A stretch of 64,000 bases of DNA from Oscillospiraceae bacterium (GTDB taxonomy: Bacteria; Bacillota; Clostridia; Oscillospirales; Oscillospiraceae). The notes under the pieces were generated by a model. It was given only the letters and a program-made list of their open reading frames with translations, was not told the origin of the DNA and did no database searches. A program made the position numbers and the translations under genes. The stretch spans positions 62,001-126,000 of the forward strand of contig JAFWRM010000001.1 of NCBI GenBank assembly GCA_017519975.1, given 5' to 3'. Position 1 is the first letter of the stretch. Every line of letters begins with the position of its first letter. Below, piece by piece: positions 18,092 to 58,190 of this stretch.

Positions 18092-18204
18092 CGGAAGGAG
18101 CGGGAAAACAGTGGCTGATCTCCGCCCAGGTGATTGATAATCCGCAGGACAAAAGGCTCCCCCTTTCATTCCCGCGAACAGCCCGTAAGGGACAGACAGT
18201 ACGC

Positions 18205-18239
18205 AGCGGCCCGATGCCGACATTGGGCATCGGGCCGCT
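18205..18239. repeat. 14-bp inverted repeat, possible terminator of the TetR gene
   Basis: AGCGGCCCGATGCC pairs perfectly with GGCATCGGGCCGCT across a 7-nt loop. There is no T-run on the minus strand, so termination is uncertain; on the plus strand only TTTCC follows. It lies between the TetR gene and the ABC operon promoter. Confidence 0.55.
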
Positions 18240-18943: not shown

Positions 18944-18972
18944 ATTGTATCATCATTTCATCCGATTCGCAA
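18944..18972 (-). promoter_or_regulatory. promoter of the TetR gene
   Basis: TTGCGA (18967-18972), a 17-base spacer and TACAAT (18944-18949), pointing to a transcript start near 18937. Confidence 0.7.
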
Positions 18973-20816: not shown

Positions 20817-20831
20817 AGTTCCACCTCCTCA

Positions 20832-22430: not shown

Positions 22431-22557
22431 ATTATGCAAGGTTCCCCCTCCCTTATTTGCTGTAATCCGGCTGATCTGCGGCACATCGCAGCCGGTAAGG
22501 CTTCATATTCCTGGTCCCTGTGTATGGAGCATGAAAAGGGTCAGGAACAATCCCTTT

Positions 22558-23430: not shown

Positions 23431-23480
23431 TTTCAGATTCACTCCTGTCTTTACAATCTTTACAGTATATATCTCTGTAC

Positions 23481-25235: not shown

Positions 25236-25236
25236 T

Positions 25237-27030
25237 TTAATTCTCCTTCTCCGCCTCATTCAGGATCTCGCCCAGCACGAAGAAAACCGGCGTGCCCCAG
25301 GATACGAATTTTCCTGTATATTTTACAGCTGCATTGAATACCGCCGGCCCGTTCGATTTTCTGTGAGATACCTGATCCTTTTCAATGATGTCCGTTACCG
25401 GATACCCTCGCTCCAACGACAGTTCACACCAGTTTTTGGCATTTTTCAGTGCCGCTTCCTTCTCTCCTGCTTCGTACAGTCCCACGGTCATAAGCAGCTG
25501 TGAAATCGCCATGCACATCCCCAAGGCAAACGGTCCCGGAGATGAGGAATCGAACAGCGGGCTGTCAAAGCTTTCTGAACGGAATCCATGATCCGTATAG
25601 AACTTGTTCGGATCCATCAGATCCGCGGTCATTTTCCGTATGATCTCCTGCGGAAGCCTCTTTCCCAGAATGATTGGGATGTAGTTGCATATTGACTGTG
25701 AACAGAGTATACGGCCGCTCTTTTCAAGGAGACAGACAAACTGATCTCCGTTCCAGAGCCTGCGGATCATTTTCCGGATCAGTTCTTCGGAACGGGCAAA
25801 ATGCTCTTCAGCCTCATCCTGCAGTCCAAGAATCTTCGCCAGTCTGCCGCACACTTCCATACAGAGGGCAAGATATGCCTGTAGATCCGGGCTGACTACC
25901 GGAACGCCCTCCGCAAAAATGGAGGCATCGTCAAGCCCGCATTCGTCCCCATGCATGTAGCACATGAGGCCGTCCCTGTCCTCATCTCTGAATCTGCACC
26001 ACCAGTCCACCCATCGACAGAGCGGCTCATAGATCCTGGCGCACTGTTCCCCGTCTACAGCATCGTCTCCGAGATGATCCAAAGCCCAGGTGAGGGCGAA
26101 CCCCTGGAACGGAGGCTTGGTCGCTGTAAAGGCGACGTCCCGGTCATTGGCACAGTCCGGAAGCATGCCGTATTCATCCTGCATGGAAAAAAAGCTGTGC
26201 ACGATATCGAATACGAACTGCTGGTTTCTCCAACACGCCATGGCGTGGTCCGACTGCTGCCAGGTCGTACCACGCTGGATAATGCCGCTGCGCATCATGT
26301 ACATGATCGGCTCTTTCAGAACCAGCAGCGGCCTCTGATGGCTGATCCAGAACACATATGCCCCGATCTGACGAACGGTCTCAAATCTTTCCGGAAGGGG
26401 CGGAAGCTGAGATAACCAGTACTCATAGTCTTTGCGGTTTTCGGCAACACAGTCGTCAAACCCGTTCACCTGCTGCCTTGTCACATATTCGTTGCTCCAG
26501 TACACGTACCCCAGAAGGCTGCCGTTTTTCGGCTCCCAACGGATCGTCGTAGGTGCCGCCTGCATCCTCGGGCCGATCCATCTGTTATCATGGGCCTGTA
26601 AACCGGAAACGGTATCGAACAGAAACTGACCCATGCTGGTAAACCCGATCTCCAGAGAGCCGTCCAACCGATCGACGAACATCTCATGCGGTGCGAACTC
26701 AATATGGAAGCAGATGCCGAGTCCGTCGTCTGACCGAATCTGAAGCAGTTCCGGTATGGAATCGTAGCAGATTTCGATGATTCCGTGTTCCGTTTTGATA
26801 GTCAGAAGCCACGGTGAGGCAGAATATGTGAAATCGATTGTTTCACCTTTGTATGTCGGGGCACATGTGATCAGATTATATCTGAATCCCTTGGGGTCGT
26901 CCCGTGTAACGCTGAGATAGATCCTGTCTCCGTTTTTCTGAGCCTCGTCGTCGATTGTAAGATACAGTCGATTATCCTTTTTGGAAAACGCAAGCATTTG
27001 AAGATTAAGATCTTCGATTGACGTATTCAT
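25237..27030 (-). CDS. glycosidase-like (alpha/alpha)6-barrel protein, long form L3
   Basis: A 597-aa member of the locus family with acidic motif GDECGLDDAS (E363, D367), the GTTWQQSDHAMA helix, TKPPFQGFALTW near 304, and FRSESFDSP near the second acidic site (Ser-Glu-Ser instead of Ser/Thr-Glu-Asn). The N-terminal 190 residues are the beta-rich domain. The start at 27030 has GGAGGAGAG upstream; an extended frame to 27123 lacks a site. It is translationally coupled to L2. Confidence 0.8.
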   Translation of the reverse strand: MNTSIEDLNLQMLAFSKKDNRLYLTIDDEAQKNGDRIYLSVTRDDPKGFRYNLITCAPTYKGETIDFTYSASPWLLTIKTEHGIIEICYDSIPELLQIRSDDGLGICFHIEFAPHEMFVDRLDGSLEIGFTSMGQFLFDTVSGLQAHDNRWIGPRMQAAPTTIRWEPKNGSLLGYVYWSNEYVTRQQVNGFDDCVAENRKDYEYWLSQLPPLPERFETVRQIGAYVFWISHQRPLLVLKEPIMYMMRSGIIQRGTTWQQSDHAMACWRNQQFVFDIVHSFFSMQDEYGMLPDCANDRDVAFTATKPPFQGFALTWALDHLGDDAVDGEQCARIYEPLCRWVDWWCRFRDEDRDGLMCYMHGDECGLDDASIFAEGVPVVSPDLQAYLALCMEVCGRLAKILGLQDEAEEHFARSEELIRKMIRRLWNGDQFVCLLEKSGRILCSQSICNYIPIILGKRLPQEIIRKMTADLMDPNKFYTDHGFRSESFDSPLFDSSSPGPFALGMCMAISQLLMTVGLYEAGEKEAALKNAKNWCELSLERGYPVTDIIEKDQVSHRKSNGPAVFNAAVKYTGKFVSWGTPVFFVLGEILNEAEKEN

Positions 27031-27140
27031 TCCACTCTCCTCCAACAGCACTTCGAAGCATGTTTCTTGTCCGTTTTGCCTATTTGCCGCACATGGGGCA
27101 ATACCGCATAAGTACCGCCCCATATGACTGTCAATGATGG

Positions 27141-28916
27141 TTATTCAGTTGAAGCGTACTTTCTGGCAAGGAAGATGAAACATCCCGCCGTCCATCCGGA
27201 ATTGAACAGTTCTCTTTCTCCGCGCAGCGTCATCATCCTGTTGCCGTTCTTCTTTCCTTGAATGGCGTCGATCATATGGAACAGCCCGGCATCGTTGATC
27301 AGGTCTAGGTACTGAAGCGCGATTTTCTTCGCCAGATCCGGCCGACCGCAGTATTCCAATGCCGGAACCAACAGTGCCGGAATCGGTGTCGCGATTCCTC
27401 CGGAGCACCAGCCTTCCGCCCGGAAGAAGGGACTGGTCGTGTCCTCCGTCGCCAAACCAAAAGGCGTCATGAACCCGGGCTCCCGGAAGATGATCTCAAT
27501 GGAGCGGTCAATGATCTCCTGCGGCAGCCGCTTTCCAAGCAGAAGCGCGCAGTAAAGGGGCAAACCAGTGGCCTGTGACCTTTCTCCGGTCACGATATTG
27601 ACAGCCGTCCAGCCATCCTTCGTCCATAGCTTTTCAATGATTTTTTCGACGGTATCTCTGGACCTTTTTTCCCAGTTGGCGCATTCATCGTCCGGTTTTC
27701 CCAGGAGTCTTCCCAACCTCCCGATGGCTTCCTCCTGAAGCGCCAGATAGGCGTTCATATCGGGAGCTGCCTGCGGGAATCCAACGCGGAAATATGTCGC
27801 GTCCTCCCACCCTGTCTCGACGGGGCTCTGGTTTTCGTACAGGCCGTCATGATCCAGGTCACGGTAATTCAGGTGATATTCTGTCCATTTCACAAGTCCG
27901 TCGTACAGGAACTCCAGTTCTTCTCCCGGCATCTGGGTCAGATCGAAATGATCCATCAGATACAGAAGACCGACCCCCTGAACCGGCGGTTTCGTCGGCT
28001 CTCCCCGTCCCAGGTAGGAAAGCGCATCCCCGATTTTGCCGGTACTGTCCTGATCGTCGAAGCAGGAAAGCAGCAGCTGCCACGCCAGGGGCAGATTGTG
28101 GCACAGAAAATAGGAATGCATGGCATGCTGCCAGGAGAATGCCTCGTCAAACAATGCACGCATCATTTTTATCATGGGTCGCTTATAGATGGACGTGCCG
28201 TCCGGTACGACAGAAAGGCCCCACAGCGTCCAGAGCGCTTCCCGCGCCCTTGCTGCGTATTTGGGGATACAGTGAGGATCCAGCGAGGCTTCAAAGGAAT
28301 CATAGTCCTTCTTTACCGCCTTCAGGCTCTCATCATAACTCCAATAGACGTCTCTTTTTTTCGGTTCGACCAGCGATTCTTCGCACACGATCTCAAAACC
28401 GCCTTCGTCATCCGGCATCAGCTCAATGAAGGGTCCGGCTCCGTATCGGATGGTGCCTCGAATCGCCGTGAACAGCATCCAGTAATTGCCGAACTGGATC
28501 TTCCAGGATCCGTCAAGCAGATCGACAGCGCTGCATTTTCCACCCATCCCCATCGGCGGCGTAAGGCGGAGAGCGAGCCCGTCCGTGCTCTTACCCACGG
28601 CGTATCCGGGATCGCCGATGCAGAAGCTTACACTCCCCTTGACGGATCTCAAAGTGATCTCATACGGCGTTGTATCGATCACACATTTCTGGGGCATTCC
28701 GTTATCGATCAGTTCCAGTCCAACCTGCCGGAATTTCACCGGTGACAGCACGGAATTGGCGTTCCTGTCCGTAGGTCTGATTCTTGCCGTACACAGCCAT
28801 AGATGCGCGGAGGAATACTGATTGACTCCCCCGTTGTCGTTTGCGAAAAACAGGTAGGAACCTCGCCTTGAGAATGGCATGTCCAAAGGTTCAACAAAAG
28901 TGTTTGGAACCAGCAT
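27141..28916 (-). CDS. glycosidase-like (alpha/alpha)6-barrel protein, long form L4
   Basis: A 591-aa and more divergent family member: MLVPNTFVEPLDMPFSRRG at the start, WQHAMHSYFL in the first barrel helices, TKPPVQGVGLLY near 308. Its acidic motif is VETGWEDATYF (E367, E371), so the conserved Asp after Gly-x is a Glu here. The second site reads GLATEDTTSPFFRAEGWCSGGIATP, which is nearer to the YWRGP-type loop of characterised GH63-like enzymes. AAAGGAGG precedes the ATG. No signal peptide. Confidence 0.8.
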   Translation of the reverse strand: MLVPNTFVEPLDMPFSRRGSYLFFANDNGGVNQYSSAHLWLCTARIRPTDRNANSVLSPVKFRQVGLELIDNGMPQKCVIDTTPYEITLRSVKGSVSFCIGDPGYAVGKSTDGLALRLTPPMGMGGKCSAVDLLDGSWKIQFGNYWMLFTAIRGTIRYGAGPFIELMPDDEGGFEIVCEESLVEPKKRDVYWSYDESLKAVKKDYDSFEASLDPHCIPKYAARAREALWTLWGLSVVPDGTSIYKRPMIKMMRALFDEAFSWQHAMHSYFLCHNLPLAWQLLLSCFDDQDSTGKIGDALSYLGRGEPTKPPVQGVGLLYLMDHFDLTQMPGEELEFLYDGLVKWTEYHLNYRDLDHDGLYENQSPVETGWEDATYFRVGFPQAAPDMNAYLALQEEAIGRLGRLLGKPDDECANWEKRSRDTVEKIIEKLWTKDGWTAVNIVTGERSQATGLPLYCALLLGKRLPQEIIDRSIEIIFREPGFMTPFGLATEDTTSPFFRAEGWCSGGIATPIPALLVPALEYCGRPDLAKKIALQYLDLINDAGLFHMIDAIQGKKNGNRMMTLRGERELFNSGWTAGCFIFLARKYASTE

Positions 28917-28953
28917 TTTCTTCCTCCTTTTGGAATGTACAGATGTTTCCGGA

Positions 28954-30759
28954 TCAGAAGAGCGGATAGATCCCGCTCATGTCGTACCTGCCCGCGTCTC
29001 TCGCAAGAGCGCCCATCGTATCCAGAACGACAAATTCTCCTGTTGGGACCACGCCGAAAGAGAATCCGCAGTCGTGCATCATCTTCAGATTCATCGCCGC
29101 GCAGCCCATGATCCCTTCCCATTTTTCTTCGACCCAGTTCATGATATACACGTTATCACGAAGCTTTATGTACCAACACGGAGAACTCCATACGAAGCCC
29201 CCCGCCCTGTTTGCCGGAGATCCGGGAGCGCAGTTATTAAAGATCGTCCATGAGTATGAGTGCGGAGAATTATAGATGTGCTGTGACGTCATGAAGTCGG
29301 AATACGTCCACGTGAACGATCTTCCAAGCAGTTCTTTCGTGAACCCATGCCGCGTCATCCTGGGCGGAGTGAGTCCCTCCATGTCGATATAACCGAAATG
29401 ATACGTCGGCGTGACGTCTCTCGTCTCATACTTGCCGCCGATCACGGCGTCGATGCAGGTCGCGCATCCGTTGGCAAAGTCAAGGGCAAGAATAAAGCAT
29501 TTGGGCGGTCTGGAACCCGTTCTGAAATGGCCCAGTATGACCAGGTCGTCGTCCAGCTGGGAAGACCGGTAGATTTCCTTATGCCAGGTCTCTTCACCTT
29601 CCATGCGATATTCAAGATCATGCACGCCTGTAAATGAATACTCTATGGCAAATCCATTGTCGTCTCGGAAAAAGAGTTTCTTCCCGACACACTGAGTGCT
29701 CTCCTTCATGCGGTTGGCGGCCATCATGACGTGGTTTTTGGCAGGGTTGTAGATTGCAGCGTTATCCGCTGCAGCCATGATCTCATCCAGGGTGAGCGCT
29801 TTCGCCATGATGCTTGGACGATACGTACACCGCGCGCCTTTGACCGAATAGTCCATCCTCTTGGTGACGGTCTCCGCGTATTCCCGCCCTTTGTCGTTGA
29901 AATCATAGAAAGTAGCGGTCTGTCCCAGACACCGGCCGTCCGCCCTGTACATGAAATACTCAAATTCATTCTGCTCATCGATTCCCATGGAAACGCCGAT
30001 CTTCCTGGAATTCACCACGTCGATAACGTCAACGACCAGGCGGCCGGAGAACTCCACTTCCCCTCTGGAGTAGATGAAATACTGATCGTCTATCTGAAGA
30101 TTATCGGACGGGAAGGTCAGAACGTCGTCGCCATCCGGCGTGTTTACTTCGACCAGAGTCGAGAAAATGTTTGTCGTATACGTGACGATATGTTCGCGCC
30201 CTCTGTCGTCCTTCCAATCGATCATTCGGTTATCCAGCCGAAGCGTCAGGTGGTCGCGTGTCTCCGGCGGCTCTTCGCCTTCTTTTTCAAGGTAGCCGTA
30301 ATAGAACTGCCTTTGGACTTCACGATTGATATACGGCTTGATGTTATTCGCGTCGAATACCGAATACGTAGGATTTCTCGGGTCAAAGGCGGTCCCTTCG
30401 TAGTCGATAAACCACATTTCCAGCACCGTCACGACGGAGGTCTCCCAATTGATGATCACATTATACCCGTACTTCTTTCCCGGGAGCATATGGGTGAACA
30501 ATGTGATCGGGCCAAGATCCATAGCGCCGTACCGGCACTCTACGGCACTGCCGCCGTTCTCCCTTACAGTCAGCGCGGTATCGGAAATGAATTCGTACTC
30601 CAGCTCCGGGCCGGCCACGGGCTTCTCGTCAAGAACGATCTTCAGTTTCTGACCGTCCAAAGTACCGCTCATCGGCGTGAGGCTCGTCGGAGCCGGACAT
30701 TTGCCTATCCGCTCTTCGACCTGTTCCTTGTTGAGATTGGCATAATCGATCCTAAACAT
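28954..30759 (-). CDS. double-length MoaF-like protein M2
   Basis: A 601-aa protein about twice the size of its relatives. The second half has the full MoaF pattern (TPTYHFGYIDMEG, then RHGFTKELLGRSFTWTYSD and WYIKLRDNVYIMNWVEE), while the first half has a matching but more diverged arrangement (VQRQFYYGYLEKEG, RDHLTLRLDNRMIDW). It is therefore likely a fused tandem of two barrels. Soluble, no signal peptide. AAAGGAGG precedes the ATG. It is the first gene of the transcript that starts near the third copy of the 17-bp word. Function unknown. Confidence 0.75.
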   Translation of the reverse strand: MFRIDYANLNKEQVEERIGKCPAPTSLTPMSGTLDGQKLKIVLDEKPVAGPELEYEFISDTALTVRENGGSAVECRYGAMDLGPITLFTHMLPGKKYGYNVIINWETSVVTVLEMWFIDYEGTAFDPRNPTYSVFDANNIKPYINREVQRQFYYGYLEKEGEEPPETRDHLTLRLDNRMIDWKDDRGREHIVTYTTNIFSTLVEVNTPDGDDVLTFPSDNLQIDDQYFIYSRGEVEFSGRLVVDVIDVVNSRKIGVSMGIDEQNEFEYFMYRADGRCLGQTATFYDFNDKGREYAETVTKRMDYSVKGARCTYRPSIMAKALTLDEIMAAADNAAIYNPAKNHVMMAANRMKESTQCVGKKLFFRDDNGFAIEYSFTGVHDLEYRMEGEETWHKEIYRSSQLDDDLVILGHFRTGSRPPKCFILALDFANGCATCIDAVIGGKYETRDVTPTYHFGYIDMEGLTPPRMTRHGFTKELLGRSFTWTYSDFMTSQHIYNSPHSYSWTIFNNCAPGSPANRAGGFVWSSPCWYIKLRDNVYIMNWVEEKWEGIMGCAAMNLKMMHDCGFSFGVVPTGEFVVLDTMGALARDAGRYDMSGIYPLF

Positions 30760-31089
30760 AGTTCCTCCTTTTCAGTTCGTAGCTTCAACCGTCCTCATCC
30801 GTCGGCCGCTAAGTTCCTGCCCTGGGCGACAGAGCAGGAACCACATCCGGCCACAGTACACCTGTATAGTATTACAGTATCTGTTTGTCCTTCCGTCGAT
30901 AATCTATCCGGCAACCCTCTTCTGGTTTTTGTTGATTGTTACGAACTAGAACAGCGCTTGATTTGTACATCTGTATTGGTTCCTCTAACACTGCGCTCTC
31001 CATCCCACGTTCCGGATTCTCCAACGGATGACTGTTGATCCGGCAGGACTGATCGACGGATCTTCGATGGTTCTGCCCATGCGTTCTGA
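30760..31089 (-). promoter_or_regulatory. intergenic region with promoter-like sequence and the third 17-bp word
   Basis: This 330-base gap has no credible gene. The exact word AGTACACCTGTATAGTA lies at 30855-30871, next to a -10-like TAATAC/TACTAT on the minus strand; the -35 (around GACGGA) is weak. It marks a probable transcription start for M2 and the genes after it. Confidence 0.65.
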
Positions 31090-32880
31090 TCATTTGCCGA
31101 TGATACCCGTCACCATTGTCAGGAAACAGTTGGCGCTCCATGAACTCCATGCCCATCCGTCTGCGGGCTGAGGCGGGATCTGCTGGTCGGCCTTTGCCCC
31201 ATTGTATTTATAATAGTTATACGGAGCGTAACCAAGTATGATGCCCTCTCGGTTCGTATGATCGCAGTATCTGCGTGCGATGATCTCCGCTTCTTTCTGT
31301 TTGCCTGCAGCTTGCAGCCCCACACTCAGGATCATGTTCATAGGCCCGACGACGCGTCCGCAGACAAAGGAGATTCCATAAGTCGCAAGTTCGCTGTTGA
31401 CGTTCTCAGAAGCAAGTCCAATGTCTGTCAGCCATTGATCCTCCTGCGTGAGTTTTTCTGCAATCGTGTCGATAATGTGCTGCGGCAGTCGCTTGCCCAG
31501 TATGATCGGCTGATAGCAGGCCAGGCTCATGGAATCGACAGGTTTTCCCTTGACCTTTGCCACGAATTTTTCTCCGTCCCAGAACTCGTTGACAAGAATA
31601 TCGGTCAGCTTTTCGGCGCGCTTCATCCATTGATCATGGTCACTGAGCCTGCCGGTCTTTCTCGCAAGTACGGCGACCGCTTCCATCAGCAGGATCAGGA
31701 AAGCCATCGAATTCGGTTCGACCGTTGGGAATCCGTCGCGGAAGATCGAAGCGTCATCCCATCCGGACTCGTGCGGACTCAGAAGGGCGATCGTGTCGTC
31801 GCCGCGGCCGGAACCACGGTATCTGACCCAGTATTCGATCCAGGCAGCCATCTTGGGATACATGCGTTCCGCTTCTTCCGGGGTGATGAAGTCATCGCCG
31901 ATATTGCGGAAAATGTAATCCAGTGCAAAACCCTGGAACGCGGGCTGCATTCCGCCCATTGGGAATGTGCTGTAAGTGATCATATTGGGAACACGTCCCG
32001 TAATCTCGTCCTGATACAGGAACATGACACAGATCAGCCGCCATGCTTCCTGTGGATCCGCGAGCATCGGCATTGCGTTATAGCTCTGCTGCCAAGGGGC
32101 TGCGGCACAGGACCACGTGTTCTGAAAAAGAATATGAGAATCCTTGAACGTGCCGATGGCTTTCGTCTTACAGCTCCAGATCAGCCATTCGGCGTATTTT
32201 GCCATCTCCTCATATCCGGGAGCGGGAGCGTTGTATTTCTTTCTGAACTGTTCGAAATCCTGGCGGTTGTTTTCGACCAGTTCATCAAAGTCTTCATAGT
32301 CTCCGAAGGGAAGGATGGCGTCACGGTAATCATGTATTGCCGCTTCAAACGTCTGAGTCAGCGTATCCGGCATGAATTCGATTCGGACGAAAGAATACTC
32401 ATTTCTGTCATAGTCGAACGGAGCCGCTACACTGTAGCTGCCGGCAAGTGCCTTGAAAAACAGCTTGCCGAATTTTCCGAACTCACCTTCCCAGCCGCTT
32501 CCGTCAGCCTTGGCATAGATCCCGCGGCAGGCACGGGCGCCGTTCCCGGATGCGGAACGGAGTTCCAATCGGAGGCCGGCGTTGATCCCCCGGATTCGAA
32601 TATGAGAACGATCGGTGAGCGCGATCTCGACCTCGGCGTCCTTTCCGGCGGAAAGCTTGACCGATCCCGCATCCGCAAAATACGTATACCTGACCGGCGC
32701 GCCGTTGACCGTCAGCAGCAGGTCGAATGCAAAGTCTGTTATATTCAGAGACGTCCCCGTCCAGTTATTGCTCAAACGTAAAATGCCGTGCCTATAATAG
32801 TCTTCGAAAATATACGCATTCGAGGCATTGCGCGCGAACGACGCGCGTACCAGATTGAAACGCTCATAGGTACCAAACAT
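31090..32880 (-). CDS. glycosidase-like (alpha/alpha)6-barrel protein, long form L5
   Basis: A 596-aa protein, the closest paralogue of L1: same MFGT opening, WQQSYNAMPM helix near 263, acidic motif HESGWDDAS (E371, D375) and GLASENVNS for the second site. The ATG follows AAAGGAGG. It is encoded 12 bases after the short paralogue S2, repeating the short-long order seen at 19-22 kb. Cytoplasmic, with no signal peptide. Probably a glycoside hydrolase for the compound imported by the adjacent transporter. Confidence 0.8.
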   Translation of the reverse strand: MFGTYERFNLVRASFARNASNAYIFEDYYRHGILRLSNNWTGTSLNITDFAFDLLLTVNGAPVRYTYFADAGSVKLSAGKDAEVEIALTDRSHIRIRGINAGLRLELRSASGNGARACRGIYAKADGSGWEGEFGKFGKLFFKALAGSYSVAAPFDYDRNEYSFVRIEFMPDTLTQTFEAAIHDYRDAILPFGDYEDFDELVENNRQDFEQFRKKYNAPAPGYEEMAKYAEWLIWSCKTKAIGTFKDSHILFQNTWSCAAAPWQQSYNAMPMLADPQEAWRLICVMFLYQDEITGRVPNMITYSTFPMGGMQPAFQGFALDYIFRNIGDDFITPEEAERMYPKMAAWIEYWVRYRGSGRGDDTIALLSPHESGWDDASIFRDGFPTVEPNSMAFLILLMEAVAVLARKTGRLSDHDQWMKRAEKLTDILVNEFWDGEKFVAKVKGKPVDSMSLACYQPIILGKRLPQHIIDTIAEKLTQEDQWLTDIGLASENVNSELATYGISFVCGRVVGPMNMILSVGLQAAGKQKEAEIIARRYCDHTNREGIILGYAPYNYYKYNGAKADQQIPPQPADGWAWSSWSANCFLTMVTGIIGK

Positions 32881-32892
32881 AGCCGTCCTCCT

Positions 32893-34383
32893 TTACAGAA
32901 CCTTGTGCGCCAGAGCCAGCAGGGACGCGCCATAGAACGGACTCTCTACCATGCCTGAACGAAGCGCTTCCAGCGCTTTCGTAGTAATTGCTATCGCCTT
33001 CTCCCGCTCTCCGGCGTCATATAAGCCGGCAACAACCAGTAACCCCTCTTCATCCCCGACATCATCAACGGGGATCATGCTGATTATATCCGCAGGAAGC
33101 CGGCTGCCCAGGATCAGGGGAACGGCCGACAGCTTTTTATCCGAGTCGGAGAGGTCTCCCGTATACGCGTTCTTCCCGACGAACCCATCGCCGTTCCAAA
33201 GCTCATAAACGAGTCGTTTCAGCAACGCTTCGGCGTGTGCCGCCCATTTCTGTCCCACACCGTCGTCGTATTCCATGTTTGCGAGTTTCCCGAGAACTTC
33301 GCTCACAATGATCAGATAGGCGTTCAGATCCGGAGCAAGTACGGGCTCTCCCACCTTGAAATACTCGGGAGATCTCTCCTGGCCGCTCTCGAACCGGTAG
33401 GCATAGAAGCTCAGTCCGTCTTTGTCAACCGTACGCTCGTTGATCCAGTAGCGGGCCAGTTTCTCCAAGGCCTCATACGCTCTGTAGATCTCCCCGCGCG
33501 AATCGTTGAGCAGCCCCTCGTCGATAAGGCGTTTGACGGCAACGCCTATGATCGGCTCTGCCGGACAAGAAAGGATCATGTCCAGTGCCTTTACCGGATC
33601 CTTGAACGCCATAGACGCGATCGACATCAGTCTTGCGTTGGCTACCGTGGAATTGTATTTGCTCTTTACGATGACCTTCCTGCCATCTTCAAACGTTCTG
33701 TGTCCCAGCCATAGCGGATAAGCGATCTTCTCCTTTACGTCGTTCCACTCCTCCGGAACGTCAACCAGGGAATCGACGAACGCCTTGAATTCCGCCTCGT
33801 TCTCCGCGGCGCATTCCTCGAGCGTCTTTGTGATCTCAGGTATGGGCGTGTCACTGGGCAGATCATATACGTAAAGCTCGATCTGTCCGTCTTCAGGGGT
33901 GACTTCGTACACCGGCGTAACGGAATGGAATTTGGCCCGTTCCCAGGTATCGTCAAAAGTGTACGTCCCTTGTTTTGCTACAATAAAATACGTAACCGCA
34001 CCGATGCTGATCTTTACCCCTTCTTCCGCATTCAGCGTGGTCGCGAAAGAAGCCGTCTCCACTCCGTTCAGCCGAAGAGAAGCGTTTCCGGTAATACGTA
34101 TGGCCTGTGTCTGACTGTCTATGGCCAGCTTGTATTTCGCTCCGTTTTTCGTCGAAACTTCCAAAAGCGCTTCCGTCGCCGTGTAGTCATACGGCACGAG
34201 CTCTCCGTTTTCCAGCGGTTCGAAACGAAGCGACCCAGGCAATCTGCTCATTCCCATTGTCAGGAATCCGCCGACTGCTACCGGCATCATCGCAAGCCAC
34301 AGTTCCCCCTCGTGGTCGATGATGATATGTCTGCATTCCTTATGACCAAATCCATACAACGGCATTGTTGATTTTATATCCAC
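32893..34383 (-). CDS. glycosidase-like (alpha/alpha)6-barrel protein, short form S2
   Basis: A 496-aa relative of S1 with the same losses: the acidic motif reads FESGQERSPEYF, lacking the Asp of E-x-G-x-D, and no S/T-E-N site is present. The segment VGEPVLAPDLNAYL matches the V-S-P-D-L part of active forms. A GTG start at 34383, 8 bases behind AAAGGAG, is preferred over the ATG at 34365. It follows the transporter receptor gene and precedes L5. It is possibly a structural or regulatory partner of L5. Confidence 0.72.
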   Translation of the reverse strand: MDIKSTMPLYGFGHKECRHIIIDHEGELWLAMMPVAVGGFLTMGMSRLPGSLRFEPLENGELVPYDYTATEALLEVSTKNGAKYKLAIDSQTQAIRITGNASLRLNGVETASFATTLNAEEGVKISIGAVTYFIVAKQGTYTFDDTWERAKFHSVTPVYEVTPEDGQIELYVYDLPSDTPIPEITKTLEECAAENEAEFKAFVDSLVDVPEEWNDVKEKIAYPLWLGHRTFEDGRKVIVKSKYNSTVANARLMSIASMAFKDPVKALDMILSCPAEPIIGVAVKRLIDEGLLNDSRGEIYRAYEALEKLARYWINERTVDKDGLSFYAYRFESGQERSPEYFKVGEPVLAPDLNAYLIIVSEVLGKLANMEYDDGVGQKWAAHAEALLKRLVYELWNGDGFVGKNAYTGDLSDSDKKLSAVPLILGSRLPADIISMIPVDDVGDEEGLLVVAGLYDAGEREKAIAITTKALEALRSGMVESPFYGASLLALAHKVL

Positions 34384-34642
34384 CTGGTGTGCTCCTTTCA
34401 AAGAGATCGCGCAGTTTGAGAATCCGGCAAAAAGCCTTATGATCACTTCCGGCAGTCATGGAGCATACTCCGTTTCCCACGTTGGCAGAACCTGCGTCTG
34501 TCGATGTGCCGATAAGGACGATCTGCTCAACGCTGCCCTGGTTCTCAAACTGCAACACACGTCATTATGTTTACTCCACTGGCCGTTGGGCCAGTGGAGT
34601 AAATATATCCGCTCAGTTTCTTCTTTTCACTTGCCGAATGGC
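34384..34642 (-). other. spacer between receptor gene and short barrel gene
   Basis: About 260 bases without a supported gene. It holds the strong hairpin at 34570-34603. A 72-codon frame with a GTG start at 34558 has no ribosome site and no recognisable product. Confidence 0.5.
34570..34603. repeat. 15-bp perfect hairpin downstream of the receptor gene
   Basis: TTTACTCCACTGGCC pairs fully with GGCCAGTGGAGTAAA around a 4-nt loop. No T-run follows on the minus strand, so it is more likely an RNA-stabilising or attenuating hairpin than a full terminator. Such hairpins after a binding-protein gene raise receptor mRNA over downstream mRNA in other transport operons. Confidence 0.75.
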
Positions 34643-36313
34643 TTATTTGGTCCAGTACATATTTTGGTAATCGATATGGCCCATGCGCATCATCTGGAAG
34701 CCCGCAAGGTCCTTATTGACTGCCCACTCGGCAACTGTATCGACGAGAGAGAACCAAAGCATGGCATCGGTCTGAATCTTATTCAGTTCAATGTAGTATG
34801 CCTTATACTCTTCCGGAGTCATCAGGTGATTGATGATATCACAAATGGAGGCGAATCTCTCTTTGCCTTCAAACTCGGATCTCGTGAAAGCACCGCCCAT
34901 GTGCGTCCTGTACCATGCTGCATAGCTCTGGCCGCAGGTCATGGCCTGGGAACCTGTGAAGTCGACGAGCATGTCGCCGCAGGCGCTGGAATCGAACGCG
35001 ATGGCAAGCCAGGAGCCGGCGTCGTAGTTTCTGATATCTACGTTGATGCCGATGGCGTTGAGGTCAGTCTGAATGCACTCCGCGACCGTCACGTCGAGGG
35101 CGGAACCGTTGGTGGAGATAGAGACCGTCTTACCGATCAGGCCGCACTTCTCCGCCAGAGCCTTTGCCCCTTCCGGATCATAACCTGTTCCATACACGCC
35201 GTAGCCAGCCATCTCCTGGGGGAAGTCAATATGCTTCGCCGAAATGGCGGCAACGGAAACCTGGCCCTTTCCTCCATAGCAGATATCGTTAATGGCCTCT
35301 CTGTCGATGGCCATGGCGATCGCAGTACGCGCTTCAGGCGTATTGAGAACTTCGGATTTCTCGGTGTTGAAGTACAGTGTCTTGGCAAAAGCATTGGAAG
35401 CAGGCATATCGACAATGTCGTACGTACCGGTATCGGCGACATAATCAGCATCCTGGAAAGGCACCTGACAAAGGTCAACAGTGTCTGTTACAAGAGCGTT
35501 TGTCTTCTGGGAAGCTTCCGTGATATAGGTAAAGTTGATGTACTTACAGCCGTTGCACTCACCCCAGTATTCACCATCGGGCTTCTTCTCAAACTTGATG
35601 TGGCTGTTAGTCACATAATCTACAAGGTTGTAGGGGCCGGTACCGATAGGTGTTGTCATGATGGAAGTCTGATCGAAGCTTTCCTTGTCAAGGATCTGCA
35701 TTGTAGTAATGGACGTATCATAAATGAGGTCAAATTCGGAGAACGTCAACTTAACGGTGTACTCATCAAGCGCTACGCATTCTTCCATCTTCGGGAAGTA
35801 CGCAGGTTCACCTTCTCTGTTCTGGGCCTTGTCAATAGTGAATACAACGTCATCCGCGTTCATGGGATTTCCATTGGAGAACTTGACACCCTCTCGAAGG
35901 TGTATGATCCATGTTTTGCCTTCGTCTTCAAATTCAACTTCGGTGCACAGCTTGTATACACGTTCACCTGCCTGATTCCAGTCCCAGAGGGGATCATAAC
36001 AGAGCATCACCGCAGCAAGGCTATCGTTGCCGAGAAGCAGCAGGGGATAAAGGGTCCCCTTATCCGAAGTATACACACAGTTCAGTGTGTCTCTGGCGTT
36101 GACGACTTCGCCGCTTGGCTCCGCGTCTCCACCGGGAGTCGTGTCATCACTCGGAGTTTTGTCGCCGCCGCTCGGCGTCGTATCGCTGCTCGGCGTCGTA
36201 TCGCTGCTCGGCGTCGTGTCCTTACCCGCTCCGCCGTCGTTTCCTTTCTGTCCACAGGCCGCGAAAGACGCAACCATCAGCACAGCAAGAAGTAGTGCCA
36301 AAAACTTTTTCAT
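34643..36313 (-). CDS. ABC transporter substrate-binding lipoprotein (SBP family 5)
   Basis: A 556-aa extracellular receptor. A signal peptide ends in the lipobox VASFAAC with the lipid-modified Cys20. A flexible linker of D-T-T-P-S repeats (about 33-68) follows, then a family 5 domain with LREGVKFSNGNPMNADDVVFTI and the TPIGTGPYNLVDY segment typical of DppA/OppA proteins. It ends the BCDF-SBP transporter operon. Family 5 proteins bind peptides, nickel, opines or oligosaccharides; the neighbouring glycosidase-like genes favour a glycoside, as inference. Confidence 0.93.
   Translation of the reverse strand: MKKFLALLLAVLMVASFAACGQKGNDGGAGKDTTPSSDTTPSSDTTPSGGDKTPSDDTTPGGDAEPSGEVVNARDTLNCVYTSDKGTLYPLLLLGNDSLAAVMLCYDPLWDWNQAGERVYKLCTEVEFEDEGKTWIIHLREGVKFSNGNPMNADDVVFTIDKAQNREGEPAYFPKMEECVALDEYTVKLTFSEFDLIYDTSITTMQILDKESFDQTSIMTTPIGTGPYNLVDYVTNSHIKFEKKPDGEYWGECNGCKYINFTYITEASQKTNALVTDTVDLCQVPFQDADYVADTGTYDIVDMPASNAFAKTLYFNTEKSEVLNTPEARTAIAMAIDREAINDICYGGKGQVSVAAISAKHIDFPQEMAGYGVYGTGYDPEGAKALAEKCGLIGKTVSISTNGSALDVTVAECIQTDLNAIGINVDIRNYDAGSWLAIAFDSSACGDMLVDFTGSQAMTCGQSYAAWYRTHMGGAFTRSEFEGKERFASICDIINHLMTPEEYKAYYIELNKIQTDAMLWFSLVDTVAEWAVNKDLAGFQMMRMGHIDYQNMYWTK
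36171..36220. repeat. 18-bp tandem repeat in the receptor linker
   Basis: About 2.8 copies of CTCGGCGTCGTATCGCTG encode the Asp-Thr-Thr-Pro-Ser-Ser linker repeats. The copies are nearly identical, so the linker length may vary between strains. Confidence 0.75.
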
Positions 36314-36428: not shown

Positions 36429-37400
<972 letters not shown>

Positions 37401-37403
37401 GGC

Positions 37404-38375
37404 TTACTGTCCTCCCTTCGCATGAAAACACTTGACAAAATGACCGGGTGAAAGCTCTGTCGCTTCCGGTTTTTCTTTCGTGCATCTTTCGCTCGCAACG
37501 GGACACCTTTCCGCGAAAGGACATCCCTCAGGAAGATTTGAAGGGTCAGGCATGAGACCGTTGATGGGCTTCAGCCTGCGTTCTTTTGAGTTGAGCCTTG
37601 GAAGCGATCCGAAAAGGCCGACCGTATACGGATGGGCCGTATGATCGTAAATGTCCTCCACGGATCCGTACTCGATGATGTCCCCCGCATAAACGACGGC
37701 GACGGATTCACAGAATCCGGCCACGACGCCAAGGTCGTGGGTGATCAGCACCACGGAAGTCCCCAGCCGTTCCTTCAGCGTCTGGATCATCTCCAGCACC
37801 TGGGCCTGGATGGTCACGTCCAGCGCCGTTGTCGGTTCGTCCGCCAGCAGCAGCTCCGGGTTGCAGGCCAGCGCTATAGCGATGACCACACGCTGCTTCA
37901 TCCCGCCGGAAAATTGATGCGGATATTCGTTAAAACGGTCCGAGGAGATACCGACCATCTCCAGCATGTCACAGGCGCGTTTCTCAGCCTCTGCCTGTGA
38001 ACACTTGTTGTGGATGCGTACGGTCTCAGCGATCTGGAAGCCCACAGTCTCAACCGGGTTGAGAGAAGTCATGGGGTCCTGAAAGATCATGGCGATCTGG
38101 TTGCCGCGGATCGCGCGCATTTCCTTTTCGGAGAGTTTGAGCAGATCCTGCCCTTTAAAATAGATCTCTCCGCCACAGAGTTTTGCCGGGGGTGTCTGGA
38201 GAATACGGAGAATCGAACGCGCGATCGTCGTCTTTCCGGCACCGGTCTCGCCCACAAGGCCGATGGTTTCCCCCTTCCTCACGGATAGATTCACTCCGTT
38301 GGCCGCGTGGATGACGGCCTCATCCGTATGGTACTCAACGACCAGGTCTTTAATATCAAGAATAACTTCATCCAT
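37404..38375 (-). CDS. ABC transporter ATP-binding protein (OppD/DppD-like)
   Basis: A 323-aa ATPase: Walker A GETGAGKTT, Q-loop [12 protein letters not shown], signature FSGGMKQR, Walker [14 protein letters not shown], switch ITHD, and the C-terminal cysteine region GCPFAERCPVASERC. It has intact catalytic motifs and probably carries the main ATPase activity of the pair, given the altered signature of its partner. It follows the DppC-like permease gene by 12 bases. Confidence 0.94.
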   Translation of the reverse strand: MDEVILDIKDLVVEYHTDEAVIHAANGVNLSVRKGETIGLVGETGAGKTTIARSILRILQTPPAKLCGGEIYFKGQDLLKLSEKEMRAIRGNQIAMIFQDPMTSLNPVETVGFQIAETVRIHNKCSQAEAEKRACDMLEMVGISSDRFNEYPHQFSGGMKQRVVIAIALACNPELLLADEPTTALDVTIQAQVLEMIQTLKERLGTSVVLITHDLGVVAGFCESVAVVYAGDIIEYGSVEDIYDHTAHPYTVGLFGSLPRLNSKERRLKPINGLMPDPSNLPEGCPFAERCPVASERCTKEKPEATELSPGHFVKCFHAKGGQ

Positions 38376-38387
38376 AGCAGATCCCCC

Positions 38388-39257
38388 TTAATTCTTCAGC
38401 TTCGGGTCGAGTGCGTCGCGGAGGCCGTCGCCAAGCAGGTTGAACCCAAGAACGGTGATCATGATGCAGAGACCGGGATAGAGCGCCAGCGTTCCGTTCG
38501 TACGGAGATAGTTCCGGGCGTCCGAGATCATCGCACCCCACTCGGCAATCGGTGACTGCACGCCAAGGCCGATAAAGCTGAGGCCGGCTCCGGACATGAC
38601 GGCGCCTCCGATGCTCATGGTAATGGTGACGATCAGGGGCGAGATCGCATTGGGAATGATATGTGTCAGAAGGATCTTGAAATTGCTTGCGTTGCAGCAC
38701 ACCGCCGCCTCGATGTACTCATTGTCACGCACGGTGAGGATCTGCGCGCGCATCATCCGGGCGAATCCGGGAACCATGCTGATCCCTATGGCTATGATGG
38801 CGTTTCGGAGGCTCGGTCCGAGGATGGCCGCAAAGGTGATGCACAGCAGCATCATGGGTATGCTCTGATAGACGTCCAGGAACCTCATCAGCAGCGTGTC
38901 GACCCATCCTCCGTAATACCCGGCGATGGAACCGATCAGGATGCCGAGGACAGCAGATATCGAAATGGCAAGGATGCCCATCGACAGGGACTGTCTCGCG
39001 CCGTAGATGAGGCGGCTCAGAATATCCCGTCCGAGGCGGTCCGTTCCCAGCAGATGCTCCGGGGACGGCGGGGCAAGCGCATTTTTCTTGTCGGCCACTT
39101 CATATCCGTACGGTGCCAGGATCGGGGCAAGCACAGCTACAAGAACAATTACGATCAGCACGGCAAGGGATACCATAGCGACCTTGTTTTTCTTTAACTG
39201 GTGCCACGTCATGGCCATTCTTGACTTTTTCCTTGCTTTTCTAATTCTCTTTGCCAT
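38388..39257 (-). CDS. ABC transporter permease (DppC-like)
   Basis: A 289-aa permease with a basic N-terminus (MAKRIRKARKKSR), about six membrane segments, the entry motif EHLLGTDRLGRDILSRL, and a coupling loop EAAVCCNASNFKILLTHIIPN. The LSFIGLGVQSPIAEWGAM sequence near the C-terminus is diagnostic of DppC/OppC. It makes the membrane channel with DppB. It starts 2 bases from the stop codon of that gene. Confidence 0.94.
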   Translation of the reverse strand: MAKRIRKARKKSRMAMTWHQLKKNKVAMVSLAVLIVIVLVAVLAPILAPYGYEVADKKNALAPPSPEHLLGTDRLGRDILSRLIYGARQSLSMGILAISISAVLGILIGSIAGYYGGWVDTLLMRFLDVYQSIPMMLLCITFAAILGPSLRNAIIAIGISMVPGFARMMRAQILTVRDNEYIEAAVCCNASNFKILLTHIIPNAISPLIVTITMSIGGAVMSGAGLSFIGLGVQSPIAEWGAMISDARNYLRTNGTLALYPGLCIMITVLGFNLLGDGLRDALDPKLKN

Positions 39258-39259
39258 GA

Positions 39260-40249
39260 TCAGCCCTCCGTTGCAGCCGCCAACGACGGTTCCGGTTTTT
39301 TCTCCTTCTTGGTCTTCTTCCCTTTTGAATACTGAGAACGGATCCTGGGGTCTATCAAAGCGTAGATGATGTCAATAAGAAGAATGACGATGCTGAACAG
39401 TGCGGAAAGGTACAGCATGCTTCCCTGGATCGCAGGATAATCTCTGTTCGTAAGTGCCGTAATCGAATATGTACCCAGTCCGGGGATGGAGAAGATCGTT
39501 TCCGCGATAAGCGCGCCGCCCAAGGCGTGTCCGAACAGACCGCCGACACTTGTGACGACAGGGATCAGAGAATTCTTGAGAACGTGCCGGTAAAGAACGG
39601 TACTCTCCTTAACGCCCTTGGCGCGGGCCGTGGTGATATAGTCCTGGCGGATCACCTCCAGCGTACTGGAACGAGTGAGCCTTGCAATACTTGCCGAATA
39701 GCCGAGAGCAAGGGATACAACAGGCAAAACCCAACCGACCCAAGTCTGGATGCCCTGTACGGGGAAGATCCTGATCTTGACCGCGAACCACTGCACAAGC
39801 ATGAGTGCGAACCAGAAAGCAGGCATCGAACTGCAGATCAGCGAGAAAAGAATTGCAAGATAGTCCTTCCACGTGTTCTGATTGGTCGCTGCAACTATCC
39901 CCAAAGGTATTCCAATGCATATGGCAATCGCGACACTTAAAACTGCCATCAGCGTGGTATAAGGTACGCGGATCATGATATCGCGGAAGACAGGCGTCTT
40001 CGTAATGAAGGACGTCCCGAAGTCTCCCTGGACCGATCCGATGACAAATCGGGCGTACCTCACCATCAGCGGATCGTCCAGCTTCAGATCCGCCCTCACC
40101 TTTGCAACTTCCTCCTCCGTCGCGTTCGTGCCTGCAACGATACGGGCAGGGTCACCGGGAGTGATTTCCATCAGGATGGTAACGATGAGGATGATGCAAA
40201 GTAAGATCGGGATCATTAACAGCAGACGTTTGATTATGTACTTGATCAT
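39260..40249 (-). CDS. ABC transporter permease (DppB-like)
   Basis: A 329-aa permease: the N-terminal anchor IKRLLLMIPILLCIILIVTILMEITPGDP and the ending GLGTYSITALTNRDYPAIQG are typical DppB features, with six membrane segments. The C-terminal tail is lysine-rich (KGKKTKKEKK). First transporter gene in the operon, 40 bases downstream of the MoaF-like gene M3. Confidence 0.94.
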   Translation of the reverse strand: MIKYIIKRLLLMIPILLCIILIVTILMEITPGDPARIVAGTNATEEEVAKVRADLKLDDPLMVRYARFVIGSVQGDFGTSFITKTPVFRDIMIRVPYTTLMAVLSVAIAICIGIPLGIVAATNQNTWKDYLAILFSLICSSMPAFWFALMLVQWFAVKIRIFPVQGIQTWVGWVLPVVSLALGYSASIARLTRSSTLEVIRQDYITTARAKGVKESTVLYRHVLKNSLIPVVTSVGGLFGHALGGALIAETIFSIPGLGTYSITALTNRDYPAIQGSMLYLSALFSIVILLIDIIYALIDPRIRSQYSKGKKTKKEKKPEPSLAAATEG

Positions 40250-40289: not shown

Positions 40290-41195
40290 TTATGGAAGGA
40301 ACGGGTTCGGATCCGTCATCAGTTTCACGTAGTCTTCATTGCTGTCCGCGTCAAAGACCTTTCCATACGCGCCGATCATTACATAAACGGGGAAATCCTT
40401 GCCGTCGCGTGTGATCGTGCCAAAGCCCCGGCCGACGTTGTAATGGTTATGGAAATTGTCGAGGAAACAGAGCGTATCGCTGCGGAAGCCCCCGTCCGCG
40501 CCGATAACTTTTTCCATATTGCGTTCCGTCAGGCTTACGAGATAGAGCCCGTCTTTGATCTTGACGTAATCGGTCGGCTCATCAGGTCCGGGAAGCTTCG
40601 AAACCATCTGATTCATCGCTTCAATCCGGGCTTTGGCTTCCTCCGTCTTGATATCCTCGCGGGGATAGGTGATGCGATACCAGTGGCTGGCATGATAGGC
40701 ATGGACCGTAGCCATTTCCGGCGCATACTGCCACTTCACGATATTGCCCACCATGTCGTCCGTAAATCCATGCCGGGGATACGGCTTGAATTCAACGCCT
40801 TCCTGTTTGATCGCGCCGAAAACGAAATCCGTCGTGACAAGATAGGGCCACCGCGGGTTCACCCCCATTTTCGCGATGACGTGTGACACGAGCATCTGTT
40901 CCAAATCGATCACGAAAGTGAAATTCTCACGTTTCGCCATCTCTTTTCCGGCAAGGCACCACGTTACAAAATACGTAGTGTCGTCTCCCTTACGGCATTC
41001 GTATTCATCCGTCTGCGGTTCCGTCGGCTCCTTATTGACGTAATTCCATTTTACCGTCTTGTTGTCGACGAAATTCAAAACAATATCGTATCCGTCGTCC
41101 ATAAGAAGTTCGAATTCCCTGCCGGCCAGCTCAAAACAGCGCGGCGGCACATACTGAAAAGAACCTTCAAATTTGCTTATTGTTCGCAGATCCAT
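40290..41195 (-). CDS. MoaF-like (calycin-type) protein M3
   Basis: A 301-aa protein, nearest paralogue of M1: PRCFELAGREFELLMDDGYDIVLNFVD at the front, FVFGAI, and RHGFTDDMVGNIVKWQYA, then YHASHWYRITYPR. Both share a DDTT(F/Y) patch and an FVIDLE(N/Q)MLV strand. It lies between M4 and the transporter genes, so it is probably made with the transporter. The start at 41195 is behind AAAGGG. No signal peptide. Family function is not established; likely a beta-barrel that binds a small molecule. Confidence 0.78.
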   Translation of the reverse strand: MDLRTISKFEGSFQYVPPRCFELAGREFELLMDDGYDIVLNFVDNKTVKWNYVNKEPTEPQTDEYECRKGDDTTYFVTWCLAGKEMAKRENFTFVIDLEQMLVSHVIAKMGVNPRWPYLVTTDFVFGAIKQEGVEFKPYPRHGFTDDMVGNIVKWQYAPEMATVHAYHASHWYRITYPREDIKTEEAKARIEAMNQMVSKLPGPDEPTDYVKIKDGLYLVSLTERNMEKVIGADGGFRSDTLCFLDNFHNHYNVGRGFGTITRDGKDFPVYVMIGAYGKVFDADSNEDYVKLMTDPNPFLP

Positions 41196-41340
41196 GACAA
41201 TCACCCTTTCAACCGTCTACTGTCGCACCGGCGTTTCCCGTTTCGGTGCGGACATAACGCCCGCCTTTCCTCTGTTATTTTCCGTAAACGGTTCGCAAGA
41301 CACGGGCCGCTTACATGAATTCCTTTGATTCCTGTTTCGC

Positions 41341-42081
41341 CTACGCCTCGTATGATATGATCCTGGCATAACAGCCGGTCTTTTGATATCTCATCTCACC
41401 GCCCTCCATTTCGAGCACGACGCCGACACCAAGCATGTTTGTAAAATCCGCAATTCCTACTGTCAGCCTTTTTCTGCTGTCAGTTTCCATGAACATATAC
41501 TGATAAAACGCATCATCACGTAGGCGGTACGTACCGTATACAGCGTCACGGATCTGCTGACTGCCGCACTCAACTGTGGCAACATATTCGTCTCTGGTGG
41601 CATTCTTCCGCCTGTTGCCGTAGCGTATGCGTACGGCAGAACTCTCCTCCACTCCAAACGTCCAATCCACTGTGTTCCCGGCAAGTTCATCCGAGGATCG
41701 TCTTTGGAAAGATGTGGATTCTCCGCCGATCTTCCCAGTGAATAAACGGCACTCAAGATTCCCAACTGCCGTCACGATCATCAGGCAGGCGTTCCCTTCG
41801 TTCACATCGATGGTCAGAACATCGCAAGTGTTTCCCCCGCAGCGGTAGGCCACCTGATACAGCCCGTCCATTACCTTTGAGCAGTCATATGCAAACGTAC
41901 CGCTCGCAGTCCCTTTGCCTGTAACGGTCACTTCCCTTGACGGGAAGCTCATAAACTCAAGCGCTACGTCATCGTGTTGTTCATTATCTCCGGTCAGGGA
42001 AATATCGAAATGCCGTCCGCAGAGTTCAAAGCAGTGGGGAGGCGTAAAGCCTGCCGCGGAGGATAAAACCCTTAGATCCAT
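41341..42081 (-). CDS. short MoaF-like protein M4
   Basis: A 246-aa protein with the MoaF opening (FTPPHCFELCGRHFDISL) and the later signature RRSSDELAGNTVDWTFG, but without the long YRITYPR region of M1 and M3; its pairwise similarity is lower. It opens MDLRVLSS, resembling the MDLRTISK of M3. It is the first gene of the upstream transcript of the locus, behind AGGGGG and downstream of two tandem 17-bp words. Soluble, no signal peptide, function unknown. Confidence 0.72.
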   Translation of the reverse strand: MDLRVLSSAAGFTPPHCFELCGRHFDISLTGDNEQHDDVALEFMSFPSREVTVTGKGTASGTFAYDCSKVMDGLYQVAYRCGGNTCDVLTIDVNEGNACLMIVTAVGNLECRLFTGKIGGESTSFQRRSSDELAGNTVDWTFGVEESSAVRIRYGNRRKNATRDEYVATVECGSQQIRDAVYGTYRLRDDAFYQYMFMETDSRKRLTVGIADFTNMLGVGVVLEMEGGEMRYQKTGCYARIISYEA

Positions 42082-42140: not shown

Positions 42141-42170
42141 AGTACACCTGTATAGTACACCTGTATAGTA
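42141..42170. promoter_or_regulatory. two overlapping copies of a 17-bp operator-like word
   Basis: AGTACACCTGTATAGTA occurs at 42141-42157 and again at 42154-42170, with a 13-base period. The core TACAC-CT-GTATA is an imperfect palindrome (4 of 5 pairs). The repeats cover the predicted transcription start directly behind the -10 box, a standard repressor position. The only other copy noticed is at 30855. Confidence 0.75.
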
Positions 42171-43064: not shown

Positions 43065-43903
43065 ATGGATAAGCAGCTGTTTTTCTCTGTAACGAAGCAG
43101 GTTTTTGATGGCCTGACAGAAACCAATGCCGTACATCTCCCAGCGGAGAACGTGACTCTGCCGATATTGGATGCGCCGATCATTGGTTTTGCCGCTGCAG
43201 ACGATCCGCTCTTTGATACCTTCAAGGATCCTCAGATCATCGGAGAAAACTGGCTCGGTCCGTTGGAACGCATGCCGGAAGCGAAAACCGTTGCGGTATT
43301 TTTCTTTCCATTCACGGAAGAGATACGCAAAAGGCACCGTGCGTGCAGAGAAGCACAGAATGAGGCCTGGAATGAAGGCTACGGCGGCCATGGAAAGGTG
43401 GTCGGCACCTTTGCCCGATCGATGACCGCCGCCTTGAATGACGCGGGTGTCAGAGTGGTTAATCCCACATGGGCCATGGAGCACCCGACCACCACCACTC
43501 CCTTTTTAACGGCGATGAAGACGATCTTAAATACGACGTTCCCTGGTCCACCCGACATGTTGCCTTTGTCGCCGGATTGGGTACCTTTGGCGTTCACAGG
43601 CACATCATCACAGAGAGGGGCTGCTGCGGCGCCATGGTCACTCTGATTCTTGACTGTTTCCTGGAGCCTACAAAGCGCAATTATTCTGATCCATACGAAT
43701 ACTGCTCCCAATGTGGCGTCTGTATCACTCGCTGCCCTGTAAACGCCATCACACGGAAGCATCTGCGCAACCTGAACAAGTGTTTCGGGCGGACTCGCGA
43801 GCTCATGGCGCTGTACGGCAAGGGCAACTGCGGCAAGTGCATGGTGGGCGTCCCCTGTGAAAGCCGGATCCCGGTAAAAAGTGAAACAGAGATGAAAACA
43901 TAA
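43065..43903 (+). pseudogene. QueG-like iron-sulfur protein gene with a frameshift at a T5 run
   Basis: The first part (MDKQLFFSVTKQVFDGL..., from 43065 behind AAGGAG) stays open to 43646 but is coding only to about 43505. The second part, in another frame, gives NGDEDDLKYDVPWSTRHVAFVAGLGTFG and the ferredoxin-like CSQCGVCITRCPVNAI and CGKCMVGVPCE, ending at 43903. Adding one T to CCCTTTTTAAC (43500-43510) restores one reading frame of about 279 aa. The product resembles epoxyqueuosine-reductase-type or reductive-dehalogenase-type Fe-S proteins, but it is not a full QueG. The gene is either broken or misread at a homopolymer. Confidence 0.75.
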
Positions 43904-57947: not shown

Positions 57948-58190
57948 GTTAAAAGCTGTGAAGAAGAGCAGTACGTACTGCGGAGCCTGCAGAGAGAGGG
58001 CGGTCGGTGAAAGCCCCCGGCGGCCGGTACGGAAGTCGCTTCGGAGCTCCGGCGCCCAGCCTGCGGGTAAGCGCCGGCGGCACCCGCGCCGTTATCGCGA
58101 AGATGAGCGCCGCCCGCATCCGGGCGGAATTCAGGTGGTACCGCGTGTTTGCACGCCCTGAGTAGAATTACCCGGGGCGTTTTCTTTTTG
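57948..58190 (+). promoter_or_regulatory. T-box riboswitch upstream of valS
   Basis: A structured leader of about 240 nt. The conserved T-box sequence CAGGTGGTACCGCG lies at 58132-58145 and is followed by a terminator stem (ACGCCC at 58153 with GGGCGT ending at 58180) and TTTTCTTTTTG. Uncharged tRNA pairs with the bulge in the T-box sequence and prevents termination. The gene downstream makes tRNA-Val the expected ligand; GTA and GTC triplets occur in stem I, but I did not fix the specifier loop. Confidence 0.92.

Follow-up and report, generated by a model that had tools for sequence, protein, structure and literature searches.

A near-palindromic predicted operator of a TetR-family regulator shared by two promoters of a MoaF-like and glycosidase-like gene cluster

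Here, we analyse a 17-bp word, AGTACACCTGTATAGTA, that occurs three times in the window (the whole 64-kb stretch of Oscillospiraceae DNA under study), at two promoters, P1 and P2, of a cluster of MoaF-like, glycosidase-like and transporter genes. With a probability of roughly 0.83, we propose that the word serves as the operator of the TetR-family regulator encoded at the end of this cluster, which would control P1 and P2 together. Such joint control of a large sugar-degradation cluster would be an ordinary form of bacterial gene regulation, and the comparative support for it is unusually good in this case. The coordinates of the features are collected in Table 1.

Table 1. Features of the locus, in forward-strand coordinates of the window; promoters and operators are predictions
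Feature	Position	Strand	Description
Promoter P1	42170-42198	-	TTGACA (42198-42193), 17 bp, TATTAT (42175-42170)
Tandem operator O1a+O1b of P1	42141-42170	-	two word copies (42141-42157, 42154-42170), 13-bp period
Cores of O1a and O1b	O1a 42156-42165; O1b 42143-42152	-	TACAGGTGTA
M4	41341-42081	-	first gene after P1, MoaF-like; similarity to M3, without Pfam match
M3 (MoaF304)	40290-41204	-	MoaF-domain protein; PF10703
oppBCDF-type ABC transporter genes	36429-40249	-	PF00528, PF00005, PF08352
Family 5 solute-binding protein	34643-36313	-	PF00496
Two glycosidase-like genes (MGH1-like)	31090-34446	-	PF22422
Site O3	30965-30976	-	diverged (ATACAGATGTAC); only other TACAnnTGTA in the window
Promoter P2	30871-30899	-	TCGACG (30899-30894), 17 bp, TGTAAT (30876-30871)
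Single operator O2 of P2	30855-30871	-	one word copy; core TACAGGTGTA at 30857-30866
M2 (MoaF601)	28954-30759	-	first gene after P2, 601 aa; PF10703, PF17409
Five glycosidase-like genes and M1	19005-28916	-	PF22422, PF10703
M1	22558-23529	-	MoaF-like
tetR promoter-like site	18944-18972	-	TTGCGA-17-TACAAT; match at chance level for the region
TetR-family regulator	18281-18883	-	200 aa, GTG start, PF00440

The three exact copies stand where a preliminary description of this DNA had placed them, and the 13-bp period that it gave for the tandem pair was obtained again on re-measurement. Shuffled versions of the window are expected to contain no copy, and no further match with up to three mismatches exists in the 64 kb. 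A genome-wide search for the word, proposed in the same description, covered 2.36 Mb (96% complete) and returned the same three exact copies, all within this locus, with none scattered at unrelated genes; the next-best matches are two sites with three mismatches each, while a reversed control pattern matches once. The genes of the locus lie on the minus strand, and the functional word is therefore TACTATACAGGTGTACT.

Within TACTATACAGGTGTACT lies the near-palindrome TACA-GG-TGTA, and the copies starting at 42141 and 30855 have 19 bases in common, ACAGTACACCTGTATAGTA (direct reading). The near-palindromic character of the core had been recognised earlier and stands; the recognised unit itself, however, is better read as TACAYCTGTA, a near-palindrome of the form (A/G)TACA-NN-TGTA(C/T), than as the 17-mer. 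A fourth, diverged copy, O3, departs from the other three at one of 12 bases. In the window, ATACAGRTGTAC with at most one mismatch is restricted to these four sites, and exact TACANNTGTA occurs four times, thrice within the word copies and once at 30966-30975. Elsewhere in the genome, TACAYCTGTA is found only twice, both times within long reading frames. Beyond this genome, TACANNTGTANNNTACANNTGTA had no match other than this site among about 400 genomes of the phylum, and the tandem 23-mer, with up to three mismatches, gave this site and one intragenic match across 400 genomes of the family. A literature search for the operator sequence found nothing relevant.

Both promoters carry the word in the same place. 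P1, described earlier as a TTGACA/TATTAT promoter at the tandem copies, is indeed the top promoter-like match of its region (11/12). P2 is weaker by consensus, and its region fails a simple promoter scan; its elements are read as TCGACG-17-TGTAAT because an alignment of P1 and P2 anchored on the word puts them in register. In this alignment, 19 of 33 upstream positions are identical (15 at the next-best shift; chance about 1e-4), the -35 and -10 positions of the two promoters coincide, and ATTAT(T/C)GAC occurs at the -35 position at equal distance from the word in both. These observations bear out the earlier claims that a second promoter-like site accompanies the word and that the word takes matching positions ahead of M4 and M2. 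The start sites are predicted near 42163 for P1 and near 30864 for P2, leaving leaders of about 80 bases and about 105 bases, respectively. The near-palindromic predicted operator, RTACA-NN-TGTAY, thus overlaps both promoters, with its centre about 10 bp past the -10 box, at about +3.5 and over the predicted start; at P1, a second core follows 13 bp further downstream. O3, whose centre lies 109 bp upstream of O2, is a possible auxiliary operator. As for the leaders themselves, that of P1 folds worse than its shuffles, and we therefore abandoned an RNA-based interpretation of it. The P2 leader holds a strong 13-bp hairpin without a U run, GGUUCCUGCUCUG / CAGGGCAGGAACU, at 30812-30842 (-), and a 110-nt leader sequence folds at -39 kcal/mol (z about -2).

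Among the genes behind the promoters, seven related genes for MGH1-like glycosidases (PF22422) are clustered at 19005-34446; two of the seven had no match in a PDB sequence search, and the one match of M2 was to an uncharacterised structure, 4q51. M2 combines MoaF N-terminal and C-terminal domains and begins with an AGGAGG ribosome site and an ATG at 30759. M4 scores below all Pfam models, with no family assigned, and resembles M3 at 25% identity (E 9e-10). The gap between the glycosidase/M1 genes and tetR is 121 bases, and no other regulator was recognised in the cluster. We infer two transcripts, one from M4 onward and one from M2 onward; no convincing terminator separates the P1 and P2 units on this strand, and transcription from P1 may therefore continue into the P2 unit. 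Directly behind tetR lies a second Opp-type ABC transporter cluster (14242-17957, minus strand), and a GC-rich hairpin without a U run, GCGGCCCGATGCC / GGCATCGGGCCGC, directly 3' of tetR at 18203-18238 (-), may end the transcript ahead of it. Elsewhere in the window, an iron-sulfur, epoxyqueuosine-reductase-like protein at 43065-43903 (+) appears split over two frames (43065-43646 and 43469-43903), either as a pseudogene or through an assembly error, and a T-box leader (RF00230, 125.5 bits) lies at 57949-58163 (+).

The regulator at the end of the cluster bears the marks of its family. Its DNA-binding domain scores 50.4 bits with PF00440 against a cut-off of 24, its AlphaFold model (mean pLDDT 90) contains ten helices, and the top PDB structural matches of the model (Foldseek) are all TetR-family proteins; the modelled protein has the all-helical TetR fold with a putative ligand-binding C-terminal domain. 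Its recognition helix is R49-Y55 (RSAFYYY), and the AlphaFold model places this helix at residues 49-55. The gene lies 12 kb and 23 kb from the sites. Its own promoter has no operator copy (the best match upstream of tetR is 7/12, chance level), and autoregulation through the operator is therefore not expected; self-control is frequent, not universal, among TetR-type repressors. We found no TetR homolog on plasmids and no ortholog, the closest TetR in the family being 31% identical, which makes direct footprinting of this locus impossible. Likewise, a search for the same locus in 149 relatives via MoaF601 returned homologs at 53-61% that lack the transporter, the TetR and the word; no relative shares the gene order, and the locus thus has no direct footprint.

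Comparative evidence comes instead from four TetR proteins of one other genus of the family, g4 (G233, G282, G321 and, later, G852; L105-L108), whose helix, TRNAFYYYF, is nearly that of the local TetR, SRSAFYYYF, and whose DNA-binding domains are 38-45% identical to the local one. Their tetR promoters contain CAATACAGATGTATTG, CAATACATATGTATTG and TTACAATTGTATTG, together with a degenerate version, CCATATACGTGTATTG. An exact TACAnnTGTA within 250 bp upstream accompanies three of these four TetRs, compared with 0 of 60 loci with other helices (about 53 distinct TetR homolog genes); Fisher's test gives about 1e-4 for this association of helix and site, a value to be taken with caution, as the four g4 TetRs are orthologs and not independent cases. 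The G282 genome has just two exact copies of CAATACAnnTGTATTG, one in the intergenic region between tetR and the Fe-ADH gene and one ahead of a Fer4-AFOR operon. In G321, CAATACAnnTGTATTG is likewise present at tetR and at the Fer4-AFOR operon, the latter copy lying exactly within the 17-bp spacer from TTGACA to TATTAT, and one further copy sits on a near-identical contig end of this genome. Since CAATACAnnTGTATTG occurs at both tetR and the ferredoxin/oxidoreductase operons, the g4 TetRs would act through the operator both on tetR itself and on another target.

A matrix built solely from these foreign sites was scanned over the 63,985 positions of the window and ranked O1b first, O2 second, O3 third and O1a fourth. 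Moreover, O3 and the G282 sites have 13 consecutive bases, TACATCTGTATTG, in common, and the same core is present in the G321 sites. The matrix ranking is the chief argument for recognition of the word by the local TetR; together with the nearly identical helix and the shared operator class, it favours the earlier proposal that the TetR at the end of the locus is the regulator. Points against this assignment are the tetR gene without a copy of its own, the overall identity of only about 28% to the g4 TetRs, and a homolog, L015 (helix TRSAFYYHF), with no such site upstream.

A search of about 85,000 genomes for a pattern with a TATAG spacer gave three matches, where about two are expected by chance. 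One, in a Phycisphaeraceae MAG (L082), stands directly before a CecR-type TetR gene and is a palindrome with 11-bp arms; another is intergenic in Tepidibacter, with no adjoining regulator; and the third lies within a gene. Given the chance expectation and the different helix of the L082 protein, we take this locus as a hint only. The L082 palindrome itself, GTACAAATGTA-CTA-TACATTTGTAC at 1326-1350, is perfect and overlaps the promoter ahead of the CecR-type gene.

The missing site at the tetR promoter also raises the question of whether the operators belong to a regulator encoded elsewhere, the local TetR controlling another target such as the second ABC transporter, which tetR adjoins. The genome does encode other regulators, yet this arrangement seems unlikely: the sites are absent elsewhere outside genes, so that a remote regulator would be dedicated to this locus and would lack self-control via the site; no operator copy accompanies the second transporter; and the link between helix and operator favours the local TetR. 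Duplication could offer an account without any regulator, in which a single promoter piece gave rise to both P1 and P2 and the word is kept by recent duplication instead of by regulator binding. The 17-19 identical bases, the weaker likeness up to the -35 box and the exact tandem repetition of the 13-bp unit fit such a history, but the likeness of P1 and P2 ends with the word downstream and is confined to promoter elements upstream, and the core agrees with operators of another genus, an agreement for which duplication here cannot account; we consider this account highly improbable.

Least probable of all is binding by a winged-helix repressor of the BlaI/MecI/CopY type. The 10-bp core TACANNTGTA is the cop box of CopY/BlaI/MecI (PMC7253601), the classical cop/bla box, and the genome encodes one BlaI-family protein (C46:6569-6898). 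CopY/BlaI control is nevertheless disfavoured, as the refined CopY operator, RNYKACANNTGTMRNY (PMC7253601), fails at all four outer positions in four of four sites, and the sole BlaI homolog has a different upstream repeat, GTTTATTTGAATAAAC and TTTACTCGAATAAAC, with no TACAnnTGTA nearby. No BlaI/CopY-type gene was found in the locus or under the same box, the only homolog being the one on contig C46, where it stands beside a BlaR1-like gene with its GTTTATTTGAATAAAC / TTTACTCGAATAAAC repeat upstream (L078:6548-7000).

Under control by the local TetR, the preferred reading, a dimer would recognise (A/G)TACA-NN-TGTA(C/T). At P1, two adjacent sites with a 13-bp period would begin where the -10 box ends and extend to about +20, whereas P2 would offer a single site at the equivalent place and, about 106 bp upstream of its start, a weaker fourth site. 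The ligand-free repressor would sit over the transcription start and block RNA polymerase at both promoters until it is freed by a small molecule, which would most likely come from the substrate of the cluster. Joint induction would then bring up an uptake unit (M4, M3, OppBCDF, the binding protein and two glycosidases) and a degradation unit (M2, M1, five glycosidases and TetR). A bolder version, which we hold as doubtful, is that the 10-bp CopY/BlaI box has been reached by convergence in a TetR subfamily with the helix [ST]R[NS]AFYYYF. In this genome, the subfamily would control the 24-kb MoaF-like/glycosidase-like cluster through P1, where two adjacent dimers would bind the direct repeats, and through P2, where a site 109 bp upstream would serve for looping or as an auxiliary.

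Several known systems provide points of comparison. The operators of TetR proteins measure 22-32 bp when bound by two dimers and 15-17 bp when bound by one (PMC4150764); the 30-bp P1 site and the 17-bp P2 site fall within these ranges, which is suggestive of binding by two dimers at P1 and by a single dimer at P2. QacR and CprB (PMC4150764) are likewise TetR-type repressors with sites overlapping the promoter, but the P1 cores differ from theirs in being direct repeats of a short near-palindrome 13 bp apart, and the stoichiometry here is a prediction. Control of neighbouring enzymes is common to many TetR proteins (PMC3511530). The g4 TetRs resemble the local one in the recognition helix, in the core TACATCTGTATTG and in having one regulator with two target promoters; they differ in overall sequence (about 28% identity), in the presence of a self-site at tetR and in their targets, an Fe-dependent alcohol dehydrogenase and an aldehyde ferredoxin oxidoreductase. 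Indeed, CAATACAnnTGTATTG-class sites in that genus (L142:8369 and 12494; L141:425; L156:1501) were noted where the g4 TetR appears to control the Fe-alcohol dehydrogenase gene and the ferredoxin/aldehyde ferredoxin oxidoreductase operon, likely an aldehyde-response regulon. The CopY/BlaI/MecI box shares the 10-bp core, whereas the outer bases of the local sites contradict the refined CopY consensus throughout and the regulator family is different. GusR provides TetR-type control of glycoside use through a sugar-conjugate degradation cluster. The Foldseek matches of the TetR model include Salmonella GusR (6ayh), alike in its fold and in the kind of cluster controlled, though the sequence identity over this match is only 17%.

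The proposed operator would place a 24-kb cluster under common control, with its seven related glycosidase-like genes, its four MoaF-like genes and its Opp-type importer. The substrate of the cluster could accordingly be sought with a simple assay, in which either P1 or P2 is induced or TetR comes off a 30-bp DNA probe. Furthermore, if the local TetR reads these sites, TACANNTGTA, known as the CopY/BlaI box, can also be the site of a TetR protein, and annotation based on motifs should treat it with care.
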